A stretch of 26,075 nt of DNA. It comes from a virus. The position numbers and the translations under genes are program-made. The DNA lies in IMG/VR virus record IMGVR_UViG_3300044823_000237, positions 1 through 26,075 of that record, one strand, 5' to 3'. Below the pieces are notes generated by a model. It saw nothing but the letters and a program-made list of their open reading frames with translations, was not told the origin of the DNA and searched no databases. Shown piece by piece: positions 1 through 12,315 of the stretch. Positions within the stretch are counted from its first letter, which is position 1, and the number at the start of each line of letters is the position of its first letter.

Positions 1-105
1 ATCATCTTCCCGCTGGTCCTGTTCATCTTCCCCAGCATGTTCCTGGTTCTGCTCGGCCCCGCCGTGCTCAGCATTATGCGCGGCATGGCCCACATGGGCC
101 AGTGA
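1..105 (+). CDS. TadC-like pilus assembly protein, C-terminal end (partial)
   Basis: This is the 3' end of a host gene; its start lies outside the window. The 34 visible residues are very hydrophobic (IIFPLVLFIFPSMFLVLLGP) and end in a short polar tail, with stop TGA at 103-105. The FPxxLFIFPxxFxVLLGPA pattern is what closes TadC, the GspF-like inner-membrane platform protein of Tad (Flp) pili, a type II secretion F-domain family. It is the only plus-strand gene and the only one that looks chromosomal, so it marks the host side of the prophage junction. The insertion lies about 30 bp after its stop, so the gene itself appears intact at this end. Another GspF-family protein is possible, because only the last helix is visible. 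Confidence 0.6.
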   Translation: MIFPLVLFIFPSMFLVLLGPAVLSIMRGMAHMGQ

Positions 106-133
106 CAAGAGCGGCGCGACCGGCAAAGAGACA

Positions 134-202
134 GTCTCCCGGATTGCTCAAGGTCACGGGTTACCCTGAGCCGCGTCTCCCGGATTGCTCAAGGTCACGG
201 GT
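134..202. repeat. Two identical 28-bp direct repeats at the prophage/host junction
   Basis: The units are 134-161 and 175-202, both starting GTCTCCCGGATTGC and ending GGTCACGGGT. They are identical over 28 bp and separated by 13 bp (period 41). They lie between the host gene stop (105) and the phage cargo. Unit 1 is preceded by a short palindrome, GAGAC-A-GTCTC (128-138). A weak hairpin (CTCAAGG 147-153 with CCCTGAG 164-170, one mismatch) could form just after the host gene. Two direct repeats at a phage end resemble the repeated transposase-binding sites at the ends of Mu-like phages. They could also be attachment-site cores or a tandem duplication. The other prophage end is not in the window, so this cannot be settled here. 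Confidence 0.75.
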
Positions 203-1014
203 ACAGGGAGGTCGGTGGTCCTGGGGAATATCCCAAAATATGGCGTCTGGTTTAAACTACCGCGTAAGATGATTGGCACATTGTCTGGGGCATTACGGTA
301 ACACACGACCATAGTCGCAAGTTCTTTGTATCCAAGCCCGAATTTGGAAATTCTGTTGCATATATTTACGAGGCGGTCCTTGTCGTCCTGGTCAAAAACA
401 GTGCAATTGGCATGCAGTGGACGCTCCTCTTTCATGTGTTTATGACCTGTAAAGGCCTGAATTCCTCGTTTATCCAACTCCTCGAACGCTTCCTCGCATA
501 TACTCGGTGCCAGTACAAACTCTGAAAAAGTGCCTACAAAGTTGCTGGCCGCAAAATCCCGCTCAGAGCAAAACTGATCGCCGCTTCCTACAAAGTCATC
601 AACATATATCAACGCACCTTCACCAATTTTATTCATTATCCTAATAAGTCGGAGCGTATCGCGTGCATCAACTAAATGGCATCCCAATCGCTCTAGGTTC
701 GCGGCGTCACGGAGCAGATTTAGCATTACGGGGCTACTGCTTCCCGCGTCATGAAGCTGCACATAAATTAGCTTTTTGGACGATAACCCTGCATTGGACA
801 GCCGTTTCGTGAGCAGTTCGTTCTGCGCCACCAAAATGTCCCTTGTTCTCAATTCAGAAAAGTAGATTACGTTGTCGAGGAGTTGCCCGACCAGTTTGCG
901 GTCCTTCCTCTCAAATTGGTTCACCCAGCGTCTTGCCGACAGAAATGACAGTGGTTTCGGCCTATAGTCGCGAAAACGTAGTGCAGCCTTGACGCTTTTG
1001 ATGAGCTGCCTCAT
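154..1014 (-). CDS. Phosphoribosyltransferase-like protein (PRTase-CE-like)
   Basis: A 286-residue soluble protein, last gene of the cargo operon. It starts 2 bases after the stop of the ParB-like gene, so translation is probably coupled. Seen: a hydrophobic strand followed by VDDFVGSGDQF at residues 138-148, which has the shape of the type I phosphoribosyltransferase PRPP loop (hydrophobic strand, two acids, glycine/serine turn). An upstream loop HDAGSSSP (88-95) sits where the pyrophosphate loop would be. The N-terminal helix-rich part (about 29-75) has no motif I can name. From family knowledge, this DD-F-GSG variant matches PRTase-like proteins described in prokaryotic conflict systems (PRTase-CE) rather than nucleotide-salvage enzymes. 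Its substrate is unknown. The last residues are encoded by the 28-bp repeats, and the stop lies inside repeat unit 1, so the natural C-terminus may have been altered. The fold call is moderately secure; the role is inference. Confidence 0.65.
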   Translation of the reverse strand: MRQLIKSVKAALRFRDYRPKPLSFLSARRWVNQFERKDRKLVGQLLDNVIYFSELRTRDILVAQNELLTKRLSNAGLSSKKLIYVQLHDAGSSSPVMLNLLRDAANLERLGCHLVDARDTLRLIRIMNKIGEGALIYVDDFVGSGDQFCSERDFAASNFVGTFSEFVLAPSICEEAFEELDKRGIQAFTGHKHMKEERPLHANCTVFDQDDKDRLVNICNRISKFGLGYKELATMVVCYRNAPDNVPIILRGSLNQTPYFGIFPRTTDLPVPVTLSNPGDAAQGNP

Positions 1015-1016
1015 GG

Positions 1017-2072
1017 TCAGTCTTGCTCGGCCTCGGGATCATCGCTTCCTTCAAGTGCACTCTCTAAGCTTTTACAATATGCTTGCACTTGGCGAAGCGC
1101 CTTACGAAGGTTTTGGCGCTCGTCTTCATTCGTTGTGTACCTGAGCCTGAACTTCTGGAGTTCGGAAAGGAAGCCTTCGCACGCGGCCAGGGCACTTTGC
1201 ACACGCTTCTTCTCAACTACAAATTCGTCAAATGCATCTCTAGTCTCTAACTTGGGATTAAGGAAGAACTCCTCGACTCTACGCAACACCTCAGCCCTGG
1301 TAGGTGGGTCATCTTCCGAGAGTTCATAGCTCTCCATAATTCTGCGAAAATGAATAACGCTCTTGATCTTCTTATCGCGATATTTATCTACTAACTTCCA
1401 AGTGCATCGGTTACGGCCAAGTTTCTTGAGTGGATCGCTCGTTTCGAGCGCTAGATCTAAAACCGGGAGTGCTTCGATCCAGAAGTTCGGTGGAATCCTT
1501 GTCTTCGGATTTGGGTCGAGCGAGAGCTCCTGAAACTCTTCCGGGAATAACAGCAGCTTCTTGCAGCGTTCGATCTGTGGTTCGCTCAGGCCAGTCAGTT
1601 TTTCCAACGCTTTGTTGTCAGTAGTTCCGAGGTCCTCCATCACAATCTTTAAGCTAAGAGCGGTGGGCATCAGCTCCCATCCTTCTCGATAGTTGTGGAT
1701 AGAGAACATGTAAAGAAGCCCAGCGATTACTGTGGGCGGTTCTACCACGTTAGCGTCCAGTGTCAGCGGCGCCCCGTCCTTACCGACGCGTCCTTCGCTA
1801 ACAAGCTCGACGACGCAACGGTACCGACGCTCACCGTCAAGGATCGAAAACTTTGCGTCGCCTTTGGCCTGATAGACAGTGATTGGAACGAGTACGCCGT
1901 GCTCGGCGATATTCTTCTTCAATTCCATCAACTGGTCGGGGTCGAACAGATGACGGGGATTGTTGCTGCTCCGCTTAACTTCCTCGACTGTGAGACGTCG
2001 CAGTTGTCCCGTGGGGATTATCTGCGGCACTGTAGGCTCGGTCGGCTTTAGGGCTGGCATCTTGGCTCTCAT
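1017..2072 (-). CDS. ParB-like N-domain protein with HTH-like segment
   Basis: A 351-residue protein. The N-terminal half has the ParB/Srx-like signature: NPR at residues 38-40, the helix and strand LMELKKNIAEHGVLVPITV (48-66) and DGERRYR at 79-85, the GERRxR box that binds CTP in true ParBs. A helical segment with LTGLSEPQIERCKKLLLF (about 158-176) looks like the ParB helix-turn-helix. The C-terminal 70 residues are charged and likely coiled coil. Its ATG overlaps the methyltransferase stop (ATGA at 2072-2069), so the two are translationally coupled; a second ATG lies four codons in. There is no ParA partner and no plasmid context, so a role in partition is unlikely. Free-standing ParB-like proteins in phages and defence cassettes act as DNA-binding regulators, CTP switches or nucleases. 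It could also bind the inverted repeat upstream of the operon (inference). Confidence 0.75.
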   Translation of the reverse strand: MRAKMPALKPTEPTVPQIIPTGQLRRLTVEEVKRSSNNPRHLFDPDQLMELKKNIAEHGVLVPITVYQAKGDAKFSILDGERRYRCVVELVSEGRVGKDGAPLTLDANVVEPPTVIAGLLYMFSIHNYREGWELMPTALSLKIVMEDLGTTDNKALEKLTGLSEPQIERCKKLLLFPEEFQELSLDPNPKTRIPPNFWIEALPVLDLALETSDPLKKLGRNRCTWKLVDKYRDKKIKSVIHFRRIMESYELSEDDPPTRAEVLRRVEEFFLNPKLETRDAFDEFVVEKKRVQSALAACEGFLSELQKFRLRYTTNEDERQNLRKALRQVQAYCKSLESALEGSDDPEAEQD

Positions 2073-2899
2073 GTATTTGTGATTAATAGTTCATTGGTCC
2101 ACGCGCGGTGGGTTGCAAAACCGGCGATGTTACGACGGACAGCAACTGTCTCGTATGAGAAGTTTTTTCTCAAAACATCTGCTTCATCCGATTCGGCATA
2201 GCTGACTACAAAGTTTATTCCAGCAGTGTTTAGTCGTTCCATCCACGATCGCAGCCGCTTAATATCTTCATGAGTGAATGTACTTGGGTCGTATTCACGG
2301 AATACCCTGCGCGCACGAACGGCGTACGGGGGATCCATGTAAACCAGATCGCCCTTTTCTGCGTGATTTAGGACTTGTTCGAAGTCACCATTTATAAAAC
2401 GTGCCTTACGCAGGCTGCGGGAGCATTTCAGAAATACTTCGTCCTCTTGCAGTGAGCCGCATCCGTTCCCACTGTAGGGGACATTGAAGTGCCCAAGTAA
2501 ATTCGTCCGGTAAATGCCGTTAAAGCAAAACCTGTTCAGATATATGAATCGTGCTGCCCTGGCACACTGCTCCATCGTCGAAGTGTCGATTGATCGGAGG
2601 CGCTTGTATACCTCCTTGTTCGCAGGTGGAAGCCTCCTAAGTTTCTTTAGAACAGCGTTGATCCTATACTTCACCTCTATGTACGTTGCGATCAACTCAG
2701 GATTGAGGTCGCCAAGGATCGCCTTGGGTGGCTTAATTGCGAAAAATAGACACGCCGAACCCGCAAACGGCTCGATGTAACGGTTGTGTCGGTTTGTCCA
2801 GAATGTTTGGAGAATAGGGAGCAGTTTGCGCTTGCTGCCCGCCCATCGCAAGAACGGTGGACAGTTACTTTTTATCGGTTTGGGGATGTTTGACGACAT
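2069..2899 (-). CDS. D12-class (Dam-like) DNA adenine N6-methyltransferase
   Basis: With the ATG at 2899 the protein has 276 residues, close to the usual Dam length. Motifs in order: RWAGSKRKL (18-26), EPFAGSACLFF (43-53, the SAM-binding FxGxG-type motif I), the DLNPEL acidic strand (64-69), FNGIYRTN (126-133), FNVPY (138-142) and the catalytic DPPY (189-192). This is the full D12 set, so the enzyme should transfer methyl from SAM to adenine N6; the target (GATC or other) cannot be read from sequence. An upstream in-frame ATG at 3019 would add 40 residues without family similarity, so the later start is preferred despite a weak ribosome site. It is first gene of the cargo operon and lower in GC than the phage genes. 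No restriction endonuclease is adjacent, so it is solitary or pairs functionally with the two downstream genes. Confidence 0.9.
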   Translation of the reverse strand: MSSNIPKPIKSNCPPFLRWAGSKRKLLPILQTFWTNRHNRYIEPFAGSACLFFAIKPPKAILGDLNPELIATYIEVKYRINAVLKKLRRLPPANKEVYKRLRSIDTSTMEQCARAARFIYLNRFCFNGIYRTNLLGHFNVPYSGNGCGSLQEDEVFLKCSRSLRKARFINGDFEQVLNHAEKGDLVYMDPPYAVRARRVFREYDPSTFTHEDIKRLRSWMERLNTAGINFVVSYAESDEADVLRKNFSYETVAVRRNIAGFATHRAWTNELLITNT

Positions 2900-3022
2900 T
2901 TGATCTTCAGGAGGATCATACAGTAACAAACATGCGCCTCGACAAAACAATTGGATGGGGGGTACACGGTCCGTCCACGAATTGCCGCGGTCTGTTGGCA
3001 GGCCGTATGAGGGCCGCAAAGA

Positions 3023-3066
3023 TATTTGAGACTTTTGTTAGAGATAAATGAGAGTAGTCTCAAATA
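3023..3066. promoter_or_regulatory. 11-bp perfect inverted repeat flanking a candidate promoter (operator)
   Basis: Arms TATTTGAGACT (3023-3033) and AGTCTCAAATA (3056-3066) are perfectly complementary, with a 22-bp spacer; arm centres are 33 bp apart, close to three helical turns. On the minus strand a -35-like TTGAGA (3063-3058) is followed after exactly 17 bp by a weak -10-like TAACAA (3040-3035). The upstream arm therefore overlaps the -35 and the downstream arm covers the expected start point. This is a typical repressor-site geometry in the AT-rich gap between the last tail gene and the methyltransferase. The loop is large and no T-tract follows, so a terminator is less likely. The repeat is certain; the promoter call is moderate. 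Confidence 0.55.
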
Positions 3067-3135
3067 GCTCTGAAACTAAATAACAAATTCCTGTTCGCTT
3101 TCTATTCACCATAAAGAGGAGGTCATTGACGAGGC

Positions 3136-5385
3136 TCAGGGGGCCGTGAAGGTGCCCGTTGCGACAAGCATTGAATCGGACGAGGGGCGCGGGAAATAGG
3201 ATGGGCCAGAGACCCATCCGGCGGGGTAATCGGTACCGGGAATCCAGTCGGCGGGGATGGCTTGGGCGGCGATGAAGCCGAAGGTTGGAGATGTGCCTGA
3301 ACCGTCAGGATCGGAGACATAAAGAGCAATTGGCGAGCCCGCAGGAATGCCAGAAACGGTGAAACCTGGATAGGCAGTCGGGCCGACAATGCCCATCACC
3401 TGGACAGAAAGATCGGGGATTGCAATCGTCAGGTTGCCGTCACCGGCAACATCGGCCGAGATGGCAAGCGTCGCACGCAGCACCCAGGCAGGAGATATAA
3501 CCGAAGGAAAGCCGGTGAGGGGGAGAGAGCTGTTGGGCACCTTCATATAGTAGCTGCCGGGATCGTCGCTGACATCGGTGTAGGCATCGCGGTTGTAGGC
3601 ATGAATGGTGAGGTCGATCTGCCCGAGCGAAGAGTCAGAGGGAGTAGAAATCTCCATCTCCTCAACTAAATAATCACCAGGCGCTTCGGGGTAGAGCCAA
3701 CTATCGAGTGTGATGACATCTTTGGGCCGCACCTTCTCAATCAGCGCAGCACCATTCACATCGACAACCTCTGGATATAAAGAGAGTGAGCCAGCGATCG
3801 GAGCGTGCCATCCAGGGCCAATATCGGTGCCGAGACTACTATCGCGCTCGAACTTCATGAGTCGGTTTGTTTGGTCGAAGATGGAATTTCCACAGTCATA
3901 GATAACACGCCGAATTATCGGCTGCTGTAGAAGACCGGGAGCCTGGCGCGGAACCATGTGCCGCGCAGAAAGATGCTGTACGTTCCGAGGGGTGCGCGAA
4001 GAGAAGCGAGCATCGTCGGAACCAAGATAGCCGCCCGTTGCATTTACGATCGGTGAACCCTCTGGGTCAGTGTTAGCGGAATAAGTGTTATTCGGAAAAT
4101 CGGCTCCCTCGGGGTATGGATCGCCATCGACAACCCAGACTGGATAGACCCCGTCGAGCGAAGGGTCGCTGGAACCGCCGTAGGTCAGATAAGACGAATT
4201 GGAAAACGGACTCGGCGTTGAGCAGTTGAAGGTGCTCATTCCGAAGGCTTCGCCGTCGCGGAAGCTCCACATCCCATTGCGTGTATAACTGTTGACCTTG
4301 CAGACGGCCGGCATGTCCAGATCGCGATAGCTTGGGACAAATAGGTTGGGCGCTTTAGAAACATCTTTTTTATCCAGTTTCAAGGAGCCGGAAACAAGGT
4401 GTTTCGCGGAAGCAATAAATACCGAGGCGCGGGCGTCATCGCCAATCAGATATATTTTCCCCGCGTCGATGCGCTGATAACCGCGATCGACGCGGCACAT
4501 TGTTTCCATCATGCTTGTGAGCGAAGCATCCGAGGCGAAAATATAGCTGCCCACAAAGCGCGGGTTGCCGTTGGGCAAAATATAGTCGTTACGAGCTGCC
4601 AGCTCGCAGATGGAAGGCCAGTCGAAGCAGGCTTTTTCAGCGTCCGTCAATCCAGAGAGAGGCGGCTGTTGCGGGCGAATTTTACAACGAAGCAACGCTT
4701 CTACTTTGTGCCATGCCGGGTTGCAGGTAAAACCATAACTCACGACGTTGCCATAGCCGTCGAATATTCTACAACGCGTCGTGCGCCAGACGGCCGATCC
4801 ACTGATAGTCTGGCCGGAAGGTACGCCGCGAGCATAGGATGGAGCGCCCGGAATGGCGAAGATCACGTAGGAGATACCGCTGAAAGACTGAGGCGGAGTT
4901 ACTGTCGGGAATTGGGAGAACCATTCGTCGTAGCCTTGATCGGGGCCATAGGACTGCGATGAGTTCGCGGGGACCAATCCTGTGACTGGATCGAGAACAG
5001 GGATTGCCGTGCCGATGGGCGTATAGCGTCCAGCATGGAAGTGGAGAGATGGCTGGCCCCACTGAAAGCCCGGATAGTCGTACCAGGTGGCCAGCGTGTG
5101 GGTGTTGTAATAAATCCCAGAAGTGTAGGTCTGCGAGTTCGGGACCACCCTCTTAGCCCAGACCATATGTGGCGGAATCGCAGTCTGCGAGCCGACGGCC
5201 GCGACCGGGAAGGTGCTCATCATTTCGAAGCCATCCCACTCACCCTCGCCGAGCAAGCGACCAGAGAATTGTGAGCCGTCGATCGCGACTGTCGAAAGCA
5301 CCTCATCACCCGACCCCATGATATAGCCGAAGGCAAGCGGCAGCTTGCGCGTGCTCTGGCTGGCGAATGCGGGGTTTAGTGGCAT
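3136..5385 (-). CDS. Phage tail hub / tip protein
   Basis: A 749-residue protein, last gene of the structural operon. Its ATG overlaps the stop of the DUF2163-like gene (TGATG at 5387-5383). The first part begins with PLAFGYIMGSG, and a middle region carries several cysteines (TTRCRIFDGYGNVVSYGFTC and DWPSICELAARNDYIL). The stretch around residues 260-350 resembles the hub domain of tail-tip proteins of long-tailed siphophages and gene-transfer agents. The C-terminal about 120 residues are beta-strand rich and could be a Fibronectin/Ig-like receptor-facing domain. No separate tail fibre gene follows before the cargo operon, so this protein or its neighbour probably carries receptor binding. 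The call rests on position, size and general character rather than a sharp motif. Confidence 0.6.
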   Translation of the reverse strand: MPLNPAFASQSTRKLPLAFGYIMGSGDEVLSTVAIDGSQFSGRLLGEGEWDGFEMMSTFPVAAVGSQTAIPPHMVWAKRVVPNSQTYTSGIYYNTHTLATWYDYPGFQWGQPSLHFHAGRYTPIGTAIPVLDPVTGLVPANSSQSYGPDQGYDEWFSQFPTVTPPQSFSGISYVIFAIPGAPSYARGVPSGQTISGSAVWRTTRCRIFDGYGNVVSYGFTCNPAWHKVEALLRCKIRPQQPPLSGLTDAEKACFDWPSICELAARNDYILPNGNPRFVGSYIFASDASLTSMMETMCRVDRGYQRIDAGKIYLIGDDARASVFIASAKHLVSGSLKLDKKDVSKAPNLFVPSYRDLDMPAVCKVNSYTRNGMWSFRDGEAFGMSTFNCSTPSPFSNSSYLTYGGSSDPSLDGVYPVWVVDGDPYPEGADFPNNTYSANTDPEGSPIVNATGGYLGSDDARFSSRTPRNVQHLSARHMVPRQAPGLLQQPIIRRVIYDCGNSIFDQTNRLMKFERDSSLGTDIGPGWHAPIAGSLSLYPEVVDVNGAALIEKVRPKDVITLDSWLYPEAPGDYLVEEMEISTPSDSSLGQIDLTIHAYNRDAYTDVSDDPGSYYMKVPNSSLPLTGFPSVISPAWVLRATLAISADVAGDGNLTIAIPDLSVQVMGIVGPTAYPGFTVSGIPAGSPIALYVSDPDGSGTSPTFGFIAAQAIPADWIPGTDYPAGWVSGPSYFPRPSSDSMLVATGTFTAP

Positions 5386-6587
5386 CAGAATGTCCTCGCG
5401 GGGTTATAGAAGACGGCGGGCGCTGGCTGCGCATACTGGACATTCGGGCATTCCTGGTCCCACTGGGTCACAACACCCGCGAAGCGATTTATGGAGCTGC
5501 ATCCACCGTAGGTGAGGTCGCAGGGCGTGGGAGAAGTAGAGCCACATGCAACCGACCCGAAGGTGAGCGGGCAGGTCACGTCGATGTCGTAGGCTGGCGC
5601 AGCCACGTCGCTGAAGTTGCCGAAGCCTTCCAGCGTGAGCTGCATCCGGCTCTCATCTATTTCTGCTGCTGCGACCGTACCAATAAAGGTAAAGCACGAC
5701 GACTCCGCGTCGCCGCGCCAGAGTCGGCAGACTACCAGCGCGCCGATAAACTCATTCTGACTCCAGGCTGTTGCCACGTCGCGCGTGACCGTATTTCCAG
5801 AGATGTTCTGCACGGCAAGAGATGCGGTATCGGTCTGCGTGCTTCCAAACAACGTAAATTTCGGCTGACCTACAACCCAATCCAAAAATTGCTCAGGAAT
5901 TCCGGTGAGTATCGATGGCCAGATGCATTTATGCTCCGACCAGAAGTAACTGTTGCCGGATGCCGTCTCGACTTCAACGAGAAGGACTGGGGCGCAACCG
6001 CCGCTCGCCGCCAGGGGAATAAAAGTCGATCCGGTGGAGGAGCCAGAGCCAGGCAGAGGGGAAATTGTGATGGAGAGGTTTGCAGAGGCCGTAAACCCGG
6101 CCGAATCGGTGACCGTCAGGGTGAAGGCAGACGAACCCGCGATGATCGGAGTGCCACTCAATATGCCTGTCGCCGCATCGAGAGAAAAGCCAGAAGGCAG
6201 AACTCCTGAGGTCACCGTAAAGCTATAAGGAGCAGCTCCACCAGATGCACTTACAGTTTGGCTGTAGGGCGTCCCAATCGAACCGCTGTTGGCGATAGAA
6301 CTGTTGAGTAGAAGACCATCGTAAACGACGAGTGAACATTCAACGGCGTCGGGAGCTATAAAAGGGGGGCGCAAAAATGTGATCGTAAATAGGTAAGTCC
6401 CTGCGACCGTGGGAGTGCCACTTAGCAAACCATGTGTATCATCAGGGCAATAATCGGAGAGAATAAGTCCAGGGGGGAGAGACCCGGCGGTGACTGATTC
6501 AGTCACGGAGTAGCCCTCCGTTGTGCGCATCCCAAACTCATAGGAATAAAGGGCGCCAACCAGAGCGGGAGTGAGAATGAGGGGCAT
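5385..6587 (-). CDS. DUF2163-like tail protein with two N-terminal putative-Ig (He_PIG-type) repeats
   Basis: Start chosen at the ATG at 6587, which overlaps the previous stop as TGATG; a longer frame to 6782 only overlaps the neighbour. This gives 400 residues. Residues about 5-88 and 95-177 are two beta-sandwich repeats sharing LPxGxxL...GxLSGTPxxAGxxxFTxT, the He_PIG pattern. A Gly/Ser linker follows (178-187). The remaining about 210 residues resemble DUF2163/BR0599-type tail proteins. These include a cysteine cluster near the C-terminus (CPLTFGSVACGS, then further Cys) of the kind that carries metal in related tail-tip proteins. It sits between the distal tail protein and the hub, as DUF2163 genes do in siphophages and gene-transfer agents. 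The Ig repeats at the N-terminus are unusual and may bind cell-surface glycans. Confidence 0.65.
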   Translation of the reverse strand: MPLILTPALVGALYSYEFGMRTTEGYSVTESVTAGSLPPGLILSDYCPDDTHGLLSGTPTVAGTYLFTITFLRPPFIAPDAVECSLVVYDGLLLNSSIANSGSIGTPYSQTVSASGGAAPYSFTVTSGVLPSGFSLDAATGILSGTPIIAGSSAFTLTVTDSAGFTASANLSITISPLPGSGSSTGSTFIPLAASGGCAPVLLVEVETASGNSYFWSEHKCIWPSILTGIPEQFLDWVVGQPKFTLFGSTQTDTASLAVQNISGNTVTRDVATAWSQNEFIGALVVCRLWRGDAESSCFTFIGTVAAAEIDESRMQLTLEGFGNFSDVAAPAYDIDVTCPLTFGSVACGSTSPTPCDLTYGGCSSINRFAGVVTQWDQECPNVQYAQPAPAVFYNPARTF

Positions 6588-7492
6588 CAGACGATCACCG
6601 TGACAGCGGGAAAGATTGCGGCCGTGCCTGCGCCCGCGTTCGCCGCGTAGGCCTGCACCATCACGCGGTGCATATCCAGCGGCATTTTGCGCACTGTGAG
6701 GAGGCCATTGGCAACGGTGACTCCGGAGGGCAACGCCGCGCTCCCGACTGGCAGAGACCCGGAGCTGAGGTCGATGATGCACAAAGGTGCACCATCAACC
6801 AGAATGGCGACCTGGCCAAGATTCGCGGCCTGGCGGAACTGCATCCGAAATCCCCAGCCCACATATTGGATTTGCGCCCAATCGCAGTTCGCAGGCGCGA
6901 CGGTGGCAAGAGTGGGCGCTGCGTTGTAAATCTCATAGGCCGTCGGATCAGTGACCGACGGAGCGACAAGTGCTGGATTGAGCTGGAGAGCCCACGCCCC
7001 GGCGGTAACCGAATAAGTGGCGACGGCCTGATTCATGAAGTCGTCGAGCACGTTGATGGTGCGAGACCAGTTGACGAAGTCGCATGGGTATTTCAGCATT
7101 CGCGCCTGCGGCATCTCCTGGAAGACAACGCTCTGGACGCTATAGGAACCATTGGCGATCTCTTTCTCGTAGATTGGGGTAGTGAAGCGGCCGACGTGGT
7201 GACGCCCACCTCCGTCGTAGTCGATGTAGGTGAAGTAGCCTCCCTTGAATGCCTCGTAGAAGTATTTCAGCCGAAGAATGGTTGACCACGGACGGTTCAG
7301 ATAGGTCAGCGAGAAGGCGAAACCATCGTTCATCGTCTCGCGAGAGTAGGGAGCGCCCAGCCTCGCCTTCGAGAGCGAAGAATTGGAGGCGCTGCGGCGC
7401 TCGAACCCGAAGCTGGGGTTCGGGCTGTCGTTGAGCGTCTTCCAGAACTCGGTCGTCGGATTGAGGATGTCGGTCTCAGCCACTGATGCCAT
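6587..7492 (-). CDS. Distal tail protein, DUF2460-like
   Basis: About 300 residues. The N-terminal 130 residues contain PYSRETMNDGFAFSLTYLNRPWSTI and a YIDYDGGGRHHVGRF segment, typical in position and flavour of the distal tail protein placed directly after the tape measure in siphophages; the C-terminal half is beta-rich. Several starts are possible. The ATG at 7492 touches a GGGAG directly, whereas a GTG at 7483 has the same GGGAG nine bases upstream and overlaps the tape-measure stop by only 8 bp, so GTG may be the true start. Its stop overlaps the next ATG. Moderate family confidence. Confidence 0.6.
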   Translation of the reverse strand: MASVAETDILNPTTEFWKTLNDSPNPSFGFERRSASNSSLSKARLGAPYSRETMNDGFAFSLTYLNRPWSTILRLKYFYEAFKGGYFTYIDYDGGGRHHVGRFTTPIYEKEIANGSYSVQSVVFQEMPQARMLKYPCDFVNWSRTINVLDDFMNQAVATYSVTAGAWALQLNPALVAPSVTDPTAYEIYNAAPTLATVAPANCDWAQIQYVGWGFRMQFRQAANLGQVAILVDGAPLCIIDLSSGSLPVGSAALPSGVTVANGLLTVRKMPLDMHRVMVQAYAANAGAGTAAIFPAVTVIV

Positions 7493-10400
7493 CTCCCGCA
7501 TACTGGCTTGCAAAATTGTTGACGTGCTTTACGATCTGCCGCGCACCGCCGTTGCGAAGGAACGAGTCGAAACCCTTCGCATCGATCGCGCTGATGTTGT
7601 AGTGGTGGTGAATGTCTCCGCCCGAAGAGCCGCTGCCGTCCGCGCCGCGATACATCGAAGCCATCTCCGCCGGTGACGCTCCGCTGTTCATCGCGCCGAT
7701 CGCGGGGGCGTGCGTCGACGCAGCCGTGGGATTGATGACCGCCTCGCCGAGCATCGCGTGGATGAATCCCTCATTGGGACTTGTAGACAGTTCCCCGAAT
7801 CCATCGATGGCGCCACCCGCATGGAACTGCTTCGCGCTCATGCTGACTGCGTAGCTGCCACCCTTTGCGCGCGCTCCGATTTCGCCGACGGCGAGGATCT
7901 GCTCCTTGCGCAGATAGTTCTGATTGACCCAGTCGGCCGCGCTGCCACCCCACTTCGAGCGCATGTAGGTCAAGCCATCGGAGGCCTGTTTGTTGACGTC
8001 CGAGATGGCCGACTGGAAGTCGCCGCCACCATAGCCGTTGCGGTCTTTCTCGATCTGGGGGAAGATCGTCTTCTTGTAATAGTCGCGCGCGGGAATGCGT
8101 CCGCCTTCGCCCATGACCGCGCCAGTAACTCCCGCGATGAGTCCAACCGCCGCGCCCACCCCCGCGCCGATCAGCGCACCCACAGGGCCGAACAGACTGC
8201 CGATGGCCATGCCCGCCATGGCATCGCCCAGCATCCCCTTCATCGTTCCGCCGGCGGTGCCCGATTTGAAGTCGGACTTGGTGTCCTCATATCCCTCGTA
8301 GCCGGCGACGCCCGCGGTAGCAGCGTCGGCAACGCCGGTTGCGGCGGCGCTGCCCTTGGGAACCGAGGGGCTGAGGGGCATATTCTGGGGCTGCTCGGTG
8401 CCGCCTATCATTGCATCCGTGGCGGCGTTGCCATTCTCGTCAAAACTGATTGAGCTGGCAGGAACGGACACTGAGCTTTCAGTGCCGGGAGTCGCAATTG
8501 AACCGGCGGTTGCCCGGTCCGAACGCGCCGACTGCGCTGCCGAAACGCCGTGGACGAGGCCGGGAATGTCCGATGCGGCCGCACTGACCGTCGAGCCAAC
8601 TCCGGACGCGGATGCGGAAACGGGGCCGGAAGAGCTTCCGCCATAGCTGCCACCGCCGGCGCTGTAACTGCCCGAGGAGCCGCCGGAGTACTCCGAAGCA
8701 CCTACCCCACCACTTCCTCCGTAGACGCCCCCGCTGCCCCCGCTGCCGCCTGTCCGTGCGCCGCCAGAATGCGGGGACGAACCATGGAAGAGGCTGCCGA
8801 AGATGCCGCCTCCAGAAGCAGCTCCCGTGACTCCGGGGATGCCGGATGCGCCAGGCGCGGCATGGCCGCCAAGGATCGAGCTTTGGAACTGTTTGAAGAT
8901 GGTGAGCTGCATGATCCAGTTGGCGACGATCTCCATCATCTCGTGCTGCATGGCATCCTTGATCGAGCCCATCGGGTCCCTGAATGCCGATTCCAGCGTG
9001 CTGGTCAGGCGATCGCGCATTGCGTTCTGCTCGTCGGCCATCTGGGCGTTGCGCAGATCCCCGGCCGCGGAGATCTTGGCCAAGGCGTCGGCATGGCCTT
9101 CAACCGTGGCGTCGTCAGATTCATTCGCCATGCGCACGCGCTTCGCATATTCGGCGTCGATCTTCGCGGTCTGCTGCTGCTCCTGCGCGAAGATGCCCAT
9201 CAATCCCTTCTGGTGCGAGCCGGAGTGGACCGAGCCGGCAGCATCCTCCATCGTGGCAATCTCATCCATGTTCTTCTGGTGCAGGTCGAGCTTCTTCTGC
9301 GCGGTGCCGTTGTCGATGTCCTGCAGCTCAAGGTTGTAGGTTTGCGTGGCCTGCACATAGCGAGCGTCGGTCTCGGCAAGGCCGTCGGCGACCTTGTGGT
9401 AGCGTTCCAGCGCGTCGTCGCGCATCTTCTTGTCTTCGGCATCGAGGCGGCTGTAGCCCTTCAACGGAGAGACTTCCAGCGAGTCGCGCAGGTTCTTCTC
9501 GGCCTGGACGTAATCCTGGAGGCTCTTCGCAATCTCCGCGTTCGCCTTTACCCCGGCTGCGGTTTTGCGATCCTGCGCGTCCTCATACGTCAGCTCGGAG
9601 CGGGCGAGCAGCGATTCAATCTGCTGGATGGTGTATCGCTCGTCTTCCAGGATGCGGGCATTGCCGGTGAGCGATGCCATCACGCCCTGCTCGATCAGGT
9701 CTGCGGTCTTCGCGGCTTCCTCGGTATGCAGGTTGGCGATCTTCTTGGCCGTCTGCGCGTCGATCTCGCGGACTTTATCCGCGTAGCCAGCCTCGCCGGC
9801 GGCCATCCCCGCGAGCTCAACTTGTTCCTGCGCATAAAGAGCATCATCGCCCTTCAGCCCCATCGCTGCCGTCTCGGCGCGCATCCGGCGGATCGCCTGC
9901 TGCGTCTCTTCGTTCAGCTTGACGGTGTCGGCGCCAGCCTTGGCGCTCGCCATGTCGATTTTCTGCTGCTCTTCCGACAGGCCTGCATCGGCAGCATGTT
10001 TGTTGGGGCTTTCCTGGCCAGTCGCGTTTTTATACATCTGATCTTCCAGCGCATTCTGGGCCTGCGTATAACGCAACTCTTCTTTGGCAAGGTCAACGGT
10101 CTTCTGCCGTTCCTGGGTGATCTGCTTTTGCCGGGAGAGTGCAGAATCGCCTGCATGCGCATATTCGATGTCCGAGACGTTTTTCTTGTGCGTATCCTCA
10201 AGGGCTTTCGGGTTGAGCTTGTCGAGGTTTTGCTGGCTCTCCACAGACTGCTTCGAAGCCTGCGCCGCGGCAATGCGGTCTGCAATAAATAATGACGGGT
10301 TAGACAGATCCCGCCAGCTTTGGGCCGCCAGATAATCTGCAACCCCTTTGAAGACATTGAGAGAGGCCGTTGCCTCGTCGATCCGGAATTTTGCGTCCTC

Positions 10401-10892
10401 GATCGAGGTGACGTTGGCAAAGTCCTTCTTGGCGTTCTCCTCAACCTCCTGGCCGTAGGCGCGCGCCGCCGCGCCTGTATCCAGCCACTTCTCGCCGAGG
10501 TCGTAGACCTCTTTGCCCATGTGGTAGAGAACTTCAGCGATGGCGAGACCGGCAAACGCTCCGAACGCAACAGAGGAGATGGCCTGGAATGCCTCTGTCT
10601 GAGCAATCAGCTTTGTCAGAGCACGCGGCATGTGGACGCCGAGGGACTCCGACATCAGCCGCGTGCTCTCGATATTGGTGAGCATGCTCGCGTTGGATTT
10701 CTGGAAGCCCGCTTCAACCGCGGCCCCGGCCTTCGACCCGGCCGCGCCGACGAGAGTGATCTGCTCACCCGCGATCTTTGCCTGCGCGGACGTCCCGGCG
10801 AACGCGGCTTTGGCGCGCTGATCGAAGCGGGTTACCCCCGCGACCGCCCCGCTCTCATCCACCACCAAGCTGATTACCGCCTGCGTCGCCAT
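7476..10892 (-). CDS. Tape measure protein
   Basis: At 1138 residues it is the longest gene of the window, directly upstream of the tail-tip genes. This is the expected place and size for the protein that sets tail length and is threaded through the tube. Seen: an N-terminal region with a hydrophobic helix (about 101-127) and a long Ala/Glu/Lys/Gln-rich helical coiled-coil section (about 130-640). A strongly Gly/Ser-rich flexible stretch follows (about 680-780), then a hydrophobic Gly/Ala-rich segment (about 884-930) that could cross the cell membrane during DNA entry. The ATG lies just behind the TAA of the zinc-ribbon gene with an AAGAGG ribosome site. By the usual rule of about 0.15 nm per residue it implies a tail near 170 nm. 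Confidence 0.88.
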   Translation of the reverse strand: MATQAVISLVVDESGAVAGVTRFDQRAKAAFAGTSAQAKIAGEQITLVGAAGSKAGAAVEAGFQKSNASMLTNIESTRLMSESLGVHMPRALTKLIAQTEAFQAISSVAFGAFAGLAIAEVLYHMGKEVYDLGEKWLDTGAAARAYGQEVEENAKKDFANVTSIEDAKFRIDEATASLNVFKGVADYLAAQSWRDLSNPSLFIADRIAAAQASKQSVESQQNLDKLNPKALEDTHKKNVSDIEYAHAGDSALSRQKQITQERQKTVDLAKEELRYTQAQNALEDQMYKNATGQESPNKHAADAGLSEEQQKIDMASAKAGADTVKLNEETQQAIRRMRAETAAMGLKGDDALYAQEQVELAGMAAGEAGYADKVREIDAQTAKKIANLHTEEAAKTADLIEQGVMASLTGNARILEDERYTIQQIESLLARSELTYEDAQDRKTAAGVKANAEIAKSLQDYVQAEKNLRDSLEVSPLKGYSRLDAEDKKMRDDALERYHKVADGLAETDARYVQATQTYNLELQDIDNGTAQKKLDLHQKNMDEIATMEDAAGSVHSGSHQKGLMGIFAQEQQQTAKIDAEYAKRVRMANESDDATVEGHADALAKISAAGDLRNAQMADEQNAMRDRLTSTLESAFRDPMGSIKDAMQHEMMEIVANWIMQLTIFKQFQSSILGGHAAPGASGIPGVTGAASGGGIFGSLFHGSSPHSGGARTGGSGGSGGVYGGSGGVGASEYSGGSSGSYSAGGGSYGGSSSGPVSASASGVGSTVSAAASDIPGLVHGVSAAQSARSDRATAGSIATPGTESSVSVPASSISFDENGNAATDAMIGGTEQPQNMPLSPSVPKGSAAATGVADAATAGVAGYEGYEDTKSDFKSGTAGGTMKGMLGDAMAGMAIGSLFGPVGALIGAGVGAAVGLIAGVTGAVMGEGGRIPARDYYKKTIFPQIEKDRNGYGGGDFQSAISDVNKQASDGLTYMRSKWGGSAADWVNQNYLRKEQILAVGEIGARAKGGSYAVSMSAKQFHAGGAIDGFGELSTSPNEGFIHAMLGEAVINPTAASTHAPAIGAMNSGASPAEMASMYRGADGSGSSGGDIHHHYNISAIDAKGFDSFLRNGGARQIVKHVNNFASQYAGDGISG

Positions 10893-10895
10893 TTC

Positions 10896-11282
10896 TTACC
10901 TCTTGAACTCTGCCTGGCACTTCCGGCAGCTCCATGCCGCCTCTTCGTTCAACGCTCCGCATTTGAAGCAGCTTGGATGGCAATTGCGGAACTCGCGCTC
11001 CGCGTCCGCCAACACAAGCAGCCCTTCCGCCTCATCCGCCATCAACTCGATCTGCGCTCCGGGCAGCGCGGTCACGCTGCGCAGCCACATCAAGTACGCA
11101 ACCCATTGGTAGTAGCCGTGAGCTACAGAGCGCGCCGGGAGCACCTTCCCGAGCGCCTCGACCGCGCCCTCGCGCGTGCTGCCTTCCAGCAGCTCGTCGA
11201 GGTCCTTGCGCAAGAACGATTCGACGTACATCTCCGCCGCCGCCGTGCGCAGCCCTGGATAGTCGGTGCGGCAGTCGATCAT
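10896..11282 (-). CDS. Small tail-locus protein with C-terminal zinc ribbon
   Basis: Start at the ATG 11282, overlapping the previous stop as ATGA, giving 128 residues; a longer frame to 11312 only overlaps the neighbour. The N-terminal about 95 residues are helical with no domain I recognise. The C-terminus holds two CxxC knuckles, C105/C108 and C119/C122, spaced like a rubredoxin-type zinc ribbon, followed by a basic end. It sits between the tail chaperone locus and the tape measure, where lambda-like phages make the G/GT chaperones, so it could help tape-measure assembly. A zinc ribbon there is not usual. The gene is well supported by coupling on both sides; its function is unknown. Confidence 0.7.
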   Translation of the reverse strand: MIDCRTDYPGLRTAAAEMYVESFLRKDLDELLEGSTREGAVEALGKVLPARSVAHGYYQWVAYLMWLRSVTALPGAQIELMADEAEGLLVLADAEREFRNCHPSCFKCGALNEEAAWSCRKCQAEFKR

Positions 11283-11506
11283 TGCTTCCCATATATGCCT
11301 ACAAACCCGCACACGCGCTCACCGCCTGGAGCCTTCTCGCAGCGCGCCTCTTCGAGCCATACTGAATTCTTGATTTCGGTGGTCGCAGATAGACTGCACG
11401 GATGTATGCGGATTTGAGTGGCTTCAAAGAGGCCCGTGAGTCGCGCGCAAACGATATCTTCGAACCCCGTGATTTTGTCAACAACCTTATCGCCAAGCTC
11501 GATCAT
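11279..11506 (-). CDS. Small phage protein with VxDKITGFEDIV motif
   Basis: 75 residues, coupled on both sides: its ATG overlaps the upstream stop as ATGA (11506-11503) and its stop overlaps the next ATG as ATGA (11282-11279). The N-terminus LGDKVVDKITGFEDIVCARL resembles a family of very small beta-barrel phage proteins beginning with a KVxDxxTGFxGIV pattern, found in several tailed phages without known function. The short length and tight coupling suggest an accessory of tail assembly. Confidence 0.65.
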   Translation of the reverse strand: MIELGDKVVDKITGFEDIVCARLTGLFEATQIRIHPCSLSATTEIKNSVWLEEARCEKAPGGERVCGFVGIYGKQ

Positions 11507-12315
11507 TTTTGGTCACTATCTCCCTTCGCCGCGTCAACGATGCGGCCCGCGCCGCCCGCGTTCAGCAGCCCTTGGATGGCCGCGACCTTGTGGCTGGCGT
11601 CCATCTCGCGGACGATGCTCGCGCGGTCAAGCAGCATATCGCCGTTCGCGCGATACGAGGCGTCCACGCTCACGATCAGCTCGTCGTAGAAGTCCATCAT
11701 CAGGGCCTGGCGCGCCGGGTAGATGGTGCGGTTGCCGCGCTCGTTGCCCAGCACGCGATAGGTCCCACAGGCGCGGTTGAACTTGCGCTGCTGCTGTAGC
11801 GTTGGCGGGTTGAAGCGATGCACCAACCCGCTCCACTTCGACTTGCCGTCCCAGATGCACTCCAGCGAGATCTCGCTCAGCTCGCTCAATATGATCGGCG
11901 CATCATCCGAGACCGGCGCGACGCGCACATCGCGCAACACCTGGCCGAATGCCTTCAAGTGACCGAGCGGAAGCATGGCACGCCAGTCTCCTGCATCCGG
12001 CATGGTGTAGCCCTCGACCTTGACTACGCAGCTACGCGCCAGATCGATGGTTCCGCTCTCGACCTCAAAGGTCTCCGTCTCTTCGCCCTGGATCATCACC
12101 GACTCAGTATCGAAGCTGCGGAAGAACCGCTCCCAGTCGCTGCGCGTGATGCGGCGGAATATCCAGGTGTACTCATGCGCGCCGAACTTCATCGCGATCG
12201 CGCGGCCTTCGGTCAGCTCAAGAACCGGTGCGGGCGTTGCGGGCTCGGCGGCAATGGTGACTGGCTCGGCTTCGATGGCTTCGATCTGCTTCGGGGTTTC
12301 ATGGATTTTCGACAC
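11503..12315 (-). CDS. Putative tail assembly chaperone
   Basis: 270 residues, starting at a GTG at 12315 with an AAGGAG site seven bases upstream. It lies between the tail tube and the tape measure genes, where siphophages encode the chaperone that coats the tape measure before tube polymerisation. The N-terminal 35 residues are Ala/Pro/Glu rich and probably disordered; the rest is mixed alpha/beta with no motif I recognise. It ends in an AAAAATGA run shared with the next gene, which is also where phages place programmed frameshifts, but the sequence is not a classical slippery heptamer. Assigned by position only. Confidence 0.5.
   Translation of the reverse strand: MSKIHETPKQIEAIEAEPVTIAAEPATPAPVLELTEGRAIAMKFGAHEYTWIFRRITRSDWERFFRSFDTESVMIQGEETETFEVESGTIDLARSCVVKVEGYTMPDAGDWRAMLPLGHLKAFGQVLRDVRVAPVSDDAPIILSELSEISLECIWDGKSKWSGLVHRFNPPTLQQQRKFNRACGTYRVLGNERGNRTIYPARQALMMDFYDELIVSVDASYRANGDMLLDRASIVREMDASHKVAAIQGLLNAGGAGRIVDAAKGDSDQK

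Follow-up and report, generated by a model that had tools for sequence, protein, structure and literature searches.

At one end of the viral record IMGVR_UViG_3300044823_000237 (26,075 bases, analysed here in its entirety and referred to as the window), three genes on the minus strand (2899-154) encode, in this order, a Dam-family DNA methyltransferase, a ParB-like protein and a phosphoribosyltransferase (PRTase) of the PRTase-CE type. This trio is a conserved operon with the appearance of an immune system not yet described, one that would label the DNA it belongs to and respond to DNA lacking the label. The best explanation, which we consider probable, if not strongly so, is a mobile three-gene defence unit that resembles a restriction-modification (R-M) system with a non-nuclease effector. 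A preliminary description of this DNA had recognised three same-direction genes of the D12 methyltransferase, ParB-like and PRTase-like families, with an ATGA overlap and a 2-base gap; the layout was confirmed (methyltransferase and ParB genes overlap by 4 bases at 2069-2072, and ParB and PRTase genes are separated by 1015-1016), and Pfam profiles bear out all three identities (Table 1).

The trio recurs well beyond the window. Scanning genome contigs with a PRTase alignment returned 22 loci, four of them in the trio group (L045-L048); a viral contig scan contributed one locus from each of three records, and two of these also fall in the group. A PRTase profile was then searched against 396 Acidobacteriota, 385 Alphaproteobacteria and 301 Chloroflexota genomes and 198 genomes from the phylum of G003. 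Seventeen genomes matched at 1e-6, seven strongly (1.8e-50 or better) and ten weakly (2.9e-12 or worse). The strong matches comprise the four seeds and three genomes not used in profile building; a ParB gene adjoins the PRTase gene in all seven, and a Dam gene precedes in all six where the contig reaches that far. Among the ten weak matches neither a trio-type ParB (0/10) nor Dam (0/10) was found. Scanning by ParB brought in a third phage (L131), in which the same three genes lie upstream of a portal gene. Co-occurrence in different elements, which the preliminary description had set beforehand as a test, was thereby found at ten distinct loci, in three different phages and in Acidobacteriota, Alphaproteobacteria, Chloroflexota and Ignavibacteria, a count that includes genome G004, split over two contigs, and L046, with its ParB cut. 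The order Dam-ParB-PRTase is seen at nine of them (the window, L045, L068, L131, L088, L097, L085+L047, L048 and L089); the tenth, L046, reads ParB-PRTase on a contig that starts inside ParB. ParB therefore stands with PRTase at 10/10 loci and Dam at 9/9 where it would be visible, with gene spacings of -13 to +93 bases.

As a control, we examined 34 loci with other PRTase-CE genes. The ParB and Dam profiles of the trio matched at 0/34, compared with 34/34 for the PRTase profile used as a control. These loci include near-identical sets (L014/L016/L033 and L035/L051), three of them (L100-L102) offer about 1.5 kb of flank per side, and the result concerns trio-type ParB alone: a fusion of a ParB-like protein to a methylase at L031, identified by eye some kilobases from the PRTase-CE gene, is missed by the trio ParB profile. 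Because the operon recurs and is absent from the 34 control loci, chance association can be ruled out. The nine trio members group together in a tree built from 23 PRTases; their support (87/82) falls short of what the tool counts as a firm branch, and 15 of the 20 inner branches are weak.

The three genes do not diverge equally in step. Across the eight complete loci, the correlation between ParB and PRTase pairwise distances is 0.964 (0/5000 permutations as high), as against 0.55-0.59 for Dam with ParB or PRTase (p about 0.007), all of these values being inflated by shared ancestry. When the two divergent Alphaproteobacterial loci are left out, the ParB-PRTase correlation over the remaining six is 0.931 (2/720), and those of Dam with the others are 0.694 (29/720) and 0.581 (42/720). 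By its ranking of the pairs, this comparison of sequences says that ParB and PRTase are a tight pair and Dam a looser partner.

The first gene starts with an ATG at 2899; its open frame could also start at a TTG at 3019. The product scores 197.6 bits against the TIGR00571 dam model (cut-off 114.85) with the DPPY motif present, and its closest solved structure is the methyltransferase DpnM (2dpm, 9.8e-42). From the similarity to DpnM and EcoDam we infer GATC as the methylation target. GATC counts are near the Markov expectation both in the window (191 vs 202 expected) and in the near-identical sister record G001 of the same phage (310 vs 334), and are therefore uninformative on this point. Among PADLOC models, the window methyltransferase matches PD-Lambda-5_B at 1.8e-14, with general type II and orphan methyltransferase models scoring higher.

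A profile of the ParB-like protein matches ParB/Noc/Spo0J structures (1.1e-13 over residues 17-178); in all, the matched region runs over about residues 17-182, which span the nucleotide and helix-turn-helix (HTH) domains. Assignment of the HTH domain rests on these profile and structure matches; Pfam HTH_ParB has no match in the window protein. Its AlphaFold2 model (predicted local distance difference test, pLDDT, 74.6) aligns with ParB-CDP (7bnk) at Z 12.2 but with a root-mean-square deviation (rmsd) of 11.7, and with Noc (7nfu) at Z 11.8 and rmsd 4.2. A distinctive feature lies at the position of the canonical EN.QR motif. This motif is present in 19/19 canonical ParBs and missing from the window ParB, which has IHNYR instead, and the wider signature MF.IH..R..W occurs in 11/11 trio-type ParBs whose sequence covers it, including those of the sibling loci described below, and in 0/19 canonical ParBs. 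In view of ParB biochemistry, the histidine in place of the EN.QR glutamate may alter nucleotide hydrolysis. Searches by tblastn gave partial matches alone, in 15 of 50,697 phage records, and nothing at 1e-10 in 72,556 plasmid records; no PADLOC family matched the window ParB at E up to 0.1.

The third protein matches PF24390 with 115.6 bits (cut-off 27) over profile positions 2-253 of 253. Its AlphaFold2 model, built from an alignment of 20 sequences, has a pLDDT of 87.4 and a predicted TM-score (pTM) of 0.84, and agrees with the PRTase fold that the preliminary description had expected for 154-1014. The top VIA-align match is uracil PRTase (1o5o; Z 12.9, rmsd 2.9, 151 aligned); among the 50 matches listed, 46 are titled PRTases, PyrR, UMP synthase or phosphoribosyl pyrophosphate (PRPP) synthetase, and the other four titles (1ufr, 1v9s, 2e55 and 7rh8) carry no enzyme name. 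The matches listed by Foldseek are likewise mostly phosphoribosyltransferases (best E 5.1e-4), with low TM-scores of 0.24-0.34 by query length among 50 matches listed. Model and motif together display a type I PRTase fold with the DD..G[ST]G loop; phosphoribosyl transfer is a putative activity of the window protein, whose PRPP loop is intact. In sequence searches, tblastn found nothing at 1e-3 in the same phage and plasmid records, phmmer against PDB sequences nothing at E 1, and the profile a single weak PDB match, a PRPP synthetase (0.22). Single-protein scans of viral contigs yielded no relative beyond the near-identical sister record.

At a threshold of 1e-15, the trio ParB profile matched 72 of 372 alphaproteobacterial genomes. 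Two of the matches are trio loci, with values of 1e-130 or better; L123 follows at 4e-41, and the other 69 are weaker, from 3.6e-19 upwards. All 19 weaker matches that were read for the motif (17 Alphaproteobacteria and two from a search of Pseudomonadota) carry EN.QR. In the alphaproteobacterial locus L123 (8479-11574), overlapping genes encode a D12 methyltransferase, the ParB and an Mrr_cat protein; by eye, this operon sits between genes resembling guaA and parC. A scan of viral contigs with the L123 ParB found nothing. A second sibling locus, L132, emerged from a search of 200 Pseudomonadota genomes, where a trio-type ParB (5.7e-57) is encoded inside a DpnII restriction-modification operon (7779-12310) in the order D12 methyltransferase, DpnII nuclease (6.5e-90), ParB, a 281-aa protein with an RNAVSH string that makes it a possible HEPN protein, and a second methyltransferase. 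The gene after the trio-type ParB thus varies while the methyltransferase stays, with one locus per variant. This arrangement suggests a modular set in which the effector would change and writer and reader stay, and because two sibling loci have a non-PRTase gene after this ParB type, the case for defence and for the roles of the parts is strengthened. A broader proposal, possible yet clearly more tentative, is a 'ParB-read' restriction family, in which a methyltransferase would set the self mark, a variant clamp using cytidine triphosphate (CTP) would slide from unmarked sites, and an open effector slot would accommodate a PRTase, a nuclease of the Mrr type or what may be a HEPN ribonuclease.

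Several other ParB-search candidates were set aside. G1369 and G1303 (1e-24 and 2e-23) are canonical ParBs by their EN.QR motif, and that of G1303 also adjoins a ParA-like gene by eye. The Azospirillum plasmid match H16 is an annotated ParB partition protein beside an AAA ATPase, and the Kozakia match H38 represents a restriction endonuclease adjacent to a SIR2 gene, with no annotated ParB.

Elsewhere, PRTase-CE genes have other partners. In 10 of the 16 other PRTase-CE loci with a located PRTase, a gene for 615-659 aa follows directly, and all seven tested partners of this size are ORC-CDC6-like ATPases, two of them near-identical (L035 and L051). These pairs share with the trio the PRTase family and the gene-pair layout, often with 4-base overlaps, but the partner is an AAA ATPase (PF24389) rather than ParB, and trio-type ParB and Dam are absent. 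In the PRTase tree, the label 'ORCtype' was tested by Pfam for L029, L051, L056, L062, L063 and L066 and is assumed for six further rows, from gene size for L052, L057, L058, L060 and L064 and without such a neighbour for L059. The viral contigs L029 (957-4770) and L035 (6347-10066) carry a recurrent set of a PRTase-CE gene, an ORC-CDC6-like ATPase gene and a third gene without Pfam match. On another viral contig, L031 (2662-13912), PRTase-CE belongs to a larger set with SIS-like, AAA-like and PfkB-like genes by eye, and retron III-A-like sets were also noted by eye among the other PRTase-CE loci.

Because other PRTase-CE genes often pair with possible DNA-handling proteins, the simplest reading of the trio would have PRTase as effector, ParB as reader and Dam as writer. 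An alternative that we regard as very unlikely makes ParB solely an operon regulator, like KorB or an R-M control protein, with the PRTase sensing infection by itself or through Dam. The ParB model does match KorB structures (8qa9, Z 11.4; DNA-binding domain 1r71, Z 8.3), and the DpnII operon around ParB at L132 already has its own nuclease; however, the tightest co-divergence is between ParB and PRTase, not Dam and PRTase, and a likely DNA-handling partner accompanies many other PRTase-CE genes as well.

For the favoured defence unit we propose the following sequence of events. The Dam-type enzyme would place a self mark on resident DNA by methylating adenine at its target, which homology suggests to be GATC. 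The ParB-like protein would load on DNA via its HTH domain and form a clamp using nucleotide, and this clamp would distinguish marked from unmarked or newly arrived DNA. Loading on unmarked DNA would switch on the PRTase encoded next to it, which in turn would draw on PRPP in modifying or depleting some nucleotide or other cell component, thereby stopping phage growth or killing the cell.

Several observations weigh against this scheme. Dam co-diverges less than the other two (r 0.55-0.69) and may be exchangeable or accessory, and the trio ParB lacks the canonical EN.QR motif, so its clamp cycle may differ. The PRTase of L088 has ASG in the PRPP loop, the only one of ten to deviate, and by eye no mobile or defence genes surround the trio at L088 and L089. 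Among the other PRTase loci, 6/16 have no ORC-sized partner directly after the PRTase. With regard to the siblings, each arrangement is represented by one locus; the Mrr match at L123 is barely above its cut-off (21.3 vs 21 bits), the HEPN match at L132 is below it (14.6 vs 24.4 bits), and the DpnII nuclease of L132 precedes ParB, so that an 'effector slot after ParB' is there a reading.

The preliminary description had also called the trio mobile and assigned it to defence or counter-defence. Mobility is supported at four loci: the Mu-like phage of the window, the viral contigs L068 (with endolysin and tyrosine integrase) and L131 (with portal protein), and the Paracidobacterium scaffold L045, where a serine recombinase adjoins the trio; at L088 and L089, inspection by eye gives no sign of it. 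The trios of L045, L088 and L089 reside on long bacterial contigs (0.6-0.94 Mb), which makes counter-defence the weaker part of that assignment; defence and the roles of the parts are what we infer. The association with mobile elements at 4/10 loci also fits an addiction module, in which Dam would be the antidote, methylated sites would keep ParB off, and loss of the element would dilute methylation until ParB and PRTase kill the cured cell, with defence as a by-product. DNA methylation acts as an antidote in some type II R-M systems. We nevertheless consider this reading unlikely, given that by eye no mobile genes surround the trio at L088 and L089; the chemistry it predicts is much the same as for the defence unit, so sequence cannot separate the two.

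The position of the trio at the end of a Mu-like phage would also suit cargo that raises phage fitness or counters host defence: Dam would shield phage DNA from GATC-cutting enzymes, much as Mom shields Mu DNA, ParB would be a regulator or partition factor, and PRTase would supply nucleotides. Polyvalent proteins of phages are known to contain PRTase domains, for which a nucleotide-related role has been put forward (PMC5512222). The same operon on long bacterial contigs, the co-divergence of ParB and PRTase, and the nuclease after the same ParB type at L123 all speak against such cargo, which appears quite unlikely.

Comparison with known systems places the defence unit near, but not within, several of them. 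Its closest validated analogue is PD-lambda-5, called 'RM+Abi' (Vassallo et al. 2022, PMC9519451). PADLOC protein A of this system weakly matches the sibling ParBs (L123 and L132) over ParB_N at about 8e-4, protein B is a D12 methyltransferase profile, which the trio's Dam matches less well than it does general methyltransferase models, and a PD-lambda-5 homologue at L135 adjoins a D12 methyltransferase. PD-lambda-5 differs in having two PADLOC components without a PRTase, its ParB-like part being contained within one 460-490 aa protein. Membership of the trio in PD-lambda-5 is unsupported: the window ParB has no PADLOC match at 0.1, and the profile comparison with L135 aligns 46 columns. DpnII-type R-M systems are related through the methyltransferase, nearest DpnM, and through the trio-type ParB inside the DpnII operon at L132, but the trio has no restriction endonuclease gene. 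Unlike in a type II system, the methyltransferase is accompanied by ParB-like and PRTase-CE genes, the latter in third place, and the DNA past the border at 204 lies outside the element.

Type III-A retrons combine a PRTase, a winged-helix protein and a reverse transcriptase, and the trio PRTase matches the PADLOC model PRTase_III-A at 1.2e-15; the trio, however, has ParB and Dam where the reverse transcriptase and winged-helix protein would stand. Two retron-type PRTases fall outside the trio group in the tree, on long, unsure branches, and a retron reading was set aside, with RVT_1 found in 0/4 trio-carrying phage records, all of them possibly fragments. Retron PRTase-CE proteins are described in the excerpt of PMC9122126 as probable effectors whose mode of action is unknown. 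The same excerpt reports a DprA-PRTase system of a P2-like phage that blocks T7 and lambda (PMC9122126). As far as this description goes, it resembles the trio in joining a PRTase with a DNA-binding protein in a prophage hotspot, but has DprA instead of ParB and no methyltransferase. An earlier record of ParB and DNA methylase genes in an operon with a toxin domain concerns the HEPN MAE_28990 family, which, by the partial description in PMC3710099, has a HEPN ribonuclease where the trio has PRTase.

One ParB-like ATPase, DpdB, is already known to act together with a base-exchange enzyme (PMC12839542). This precedent would allow a DNA modification pathway, in which the ParB-like NTPase and the PRTase put a sugar-phosphate or an altered base on DNA, comparable to the action of DpdA/DpdB with deazaguanine, and a further mark would come from Dam; the nuclease-like gene in the place of PRTase at L123 does not fit, and we hold this pathway to be highly improbable. 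A survey of the ParB fold describes fusions to DNA methyltransferases in phages as well as binding of ATP or CTP, and its main text contains neither the term PRTase nor phosphoribosyl (PMC12704722). The DefensePredictor paper names a PRTase in a figure legend of validated systems (PMC13092281). The trio itself was not found in the open-access literature, as judged from titles and abstract starts among the matches listed, with subscription papers and preprints outside this coverage.

The carrier was identified with the help of the sister record G001 (42,577 bp), which matches window positions 81-26075 at 99.9% with 27 mismatches and extends 16.6 kb further. The extension encodes a Mu-type transposase (PHROG 310, 1.2e-77), a transposition ATPase (phrog_296, 2.5e-31), a repressor-like S24 protein and, near the gene of the latter, a second D12 methyltransferase (PF02086, 5e-19; L005:7913-8734, equal to G001 27913-28734). 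Window genes match Mu gp27, the phage capsid family and terminase above Pfam cut-offs, and portal and Mu F below them. From these matches and the transposition genes of the sister record, the carrier is by sequence a Mu-like transposable phage with the trio at the end of its structural-gene half. The earlier placement at a prophage end is thus upheld, whereas the 'last tail gene' said to precede the trio could not be confirmed, as the gene at 3136-5385 matches no Pfam or PHROG family. Further into the structural region, 5385-6590 encodes a protein with two putative immunoglobulin-like (He_PIG) stretches (8.6e-22).

The trio has a GC content of 49.9%, compared with 60.9% for 3136-26075, where no stretch of equal length (sampled every 100 bases) falls below 55.9%; such low GC fits recent cargo. 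A promoter scan found no sigma-70-like site on the minus strand of the leader that precedes the trio. On the other side, one of the record mismatches falls outside 90-203, and their concentration there places the border of the mobile element near 204. PRTase residues from about 271 onwards, ~16 in number, are accordingly read from flanking DNA, in agreement with the related PRTase of L045, which terminates near the same residue (TTDLPIPAGG). The flank contains two direct repeats, TGCTCAAGGTCACGG, at 145 and 186, and a plus-strand frame at 1-105 whose hydrophobic final stretch we take to belong to a TadC-like protein. The two records have flanks that resemble each other without matching fully, so a Mu-like phage may have inserted at the same site in two related hosts.

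Table 1. Positions of the trio, its motifs and adjoining stretches in the window.
Feature	Position	Strand	Evidence
Dam-family N6-adenine DNA methyltransferase, 276 aa	2069-2899	-	PF02086 (MethyltransfD12) 3.4e-42; TIGR00571 dam
DPPY catalytic motif	2324-2335	-	DPP[YF] in 11/11 methyltransferases checked, including the window's and those of two sibling loci
ParB-like protein, 351 aa: CTPase-type N-domain, HTH domain, helical C-terminus	1017-2072	-	ParB_N 4.6e-13
DGERR nucleotide-binding motif	1824-1838	-	DG[EQ]RR in 11/11 trio-type ParBs
MFSIHNYREGW signature, at the position of the canonical EN.QR motif	1677-1709	-	Alignment with ParB structures
PRTase-CE protein, 286 aa, proposed effector	154-1014	-	PF24390 4.6e-33
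VDDFVGSG, PRPP-binding loop	580-603	-	[VI]DDF.G[ST]G in 9/10 trio PRTases, the window's included
Leader between preceding phage gene and trio, probable cargo start	2900-3135		GC 44.9% (0.449 vs 0.609 for 3136-26075)
DNA outside the mobile element	1-203		26 of 27 record mismatches in 90-203

The trio is a defined, clonable three-gene unit that places a PRTase-CE protein beside an enzyme with a measurable mark and a protein with measurable DNA binding. It points to a possible role for ParB-type clamps outside chromosome segregation, namely the reading of DNA methylation for an immune effector. If the tentative 'ParB-read' family proves real, self and non-self would be told apart on a new principle, with a sliding clamp relaying a signal from sites free of methylation to an effector that drains nucleotides.

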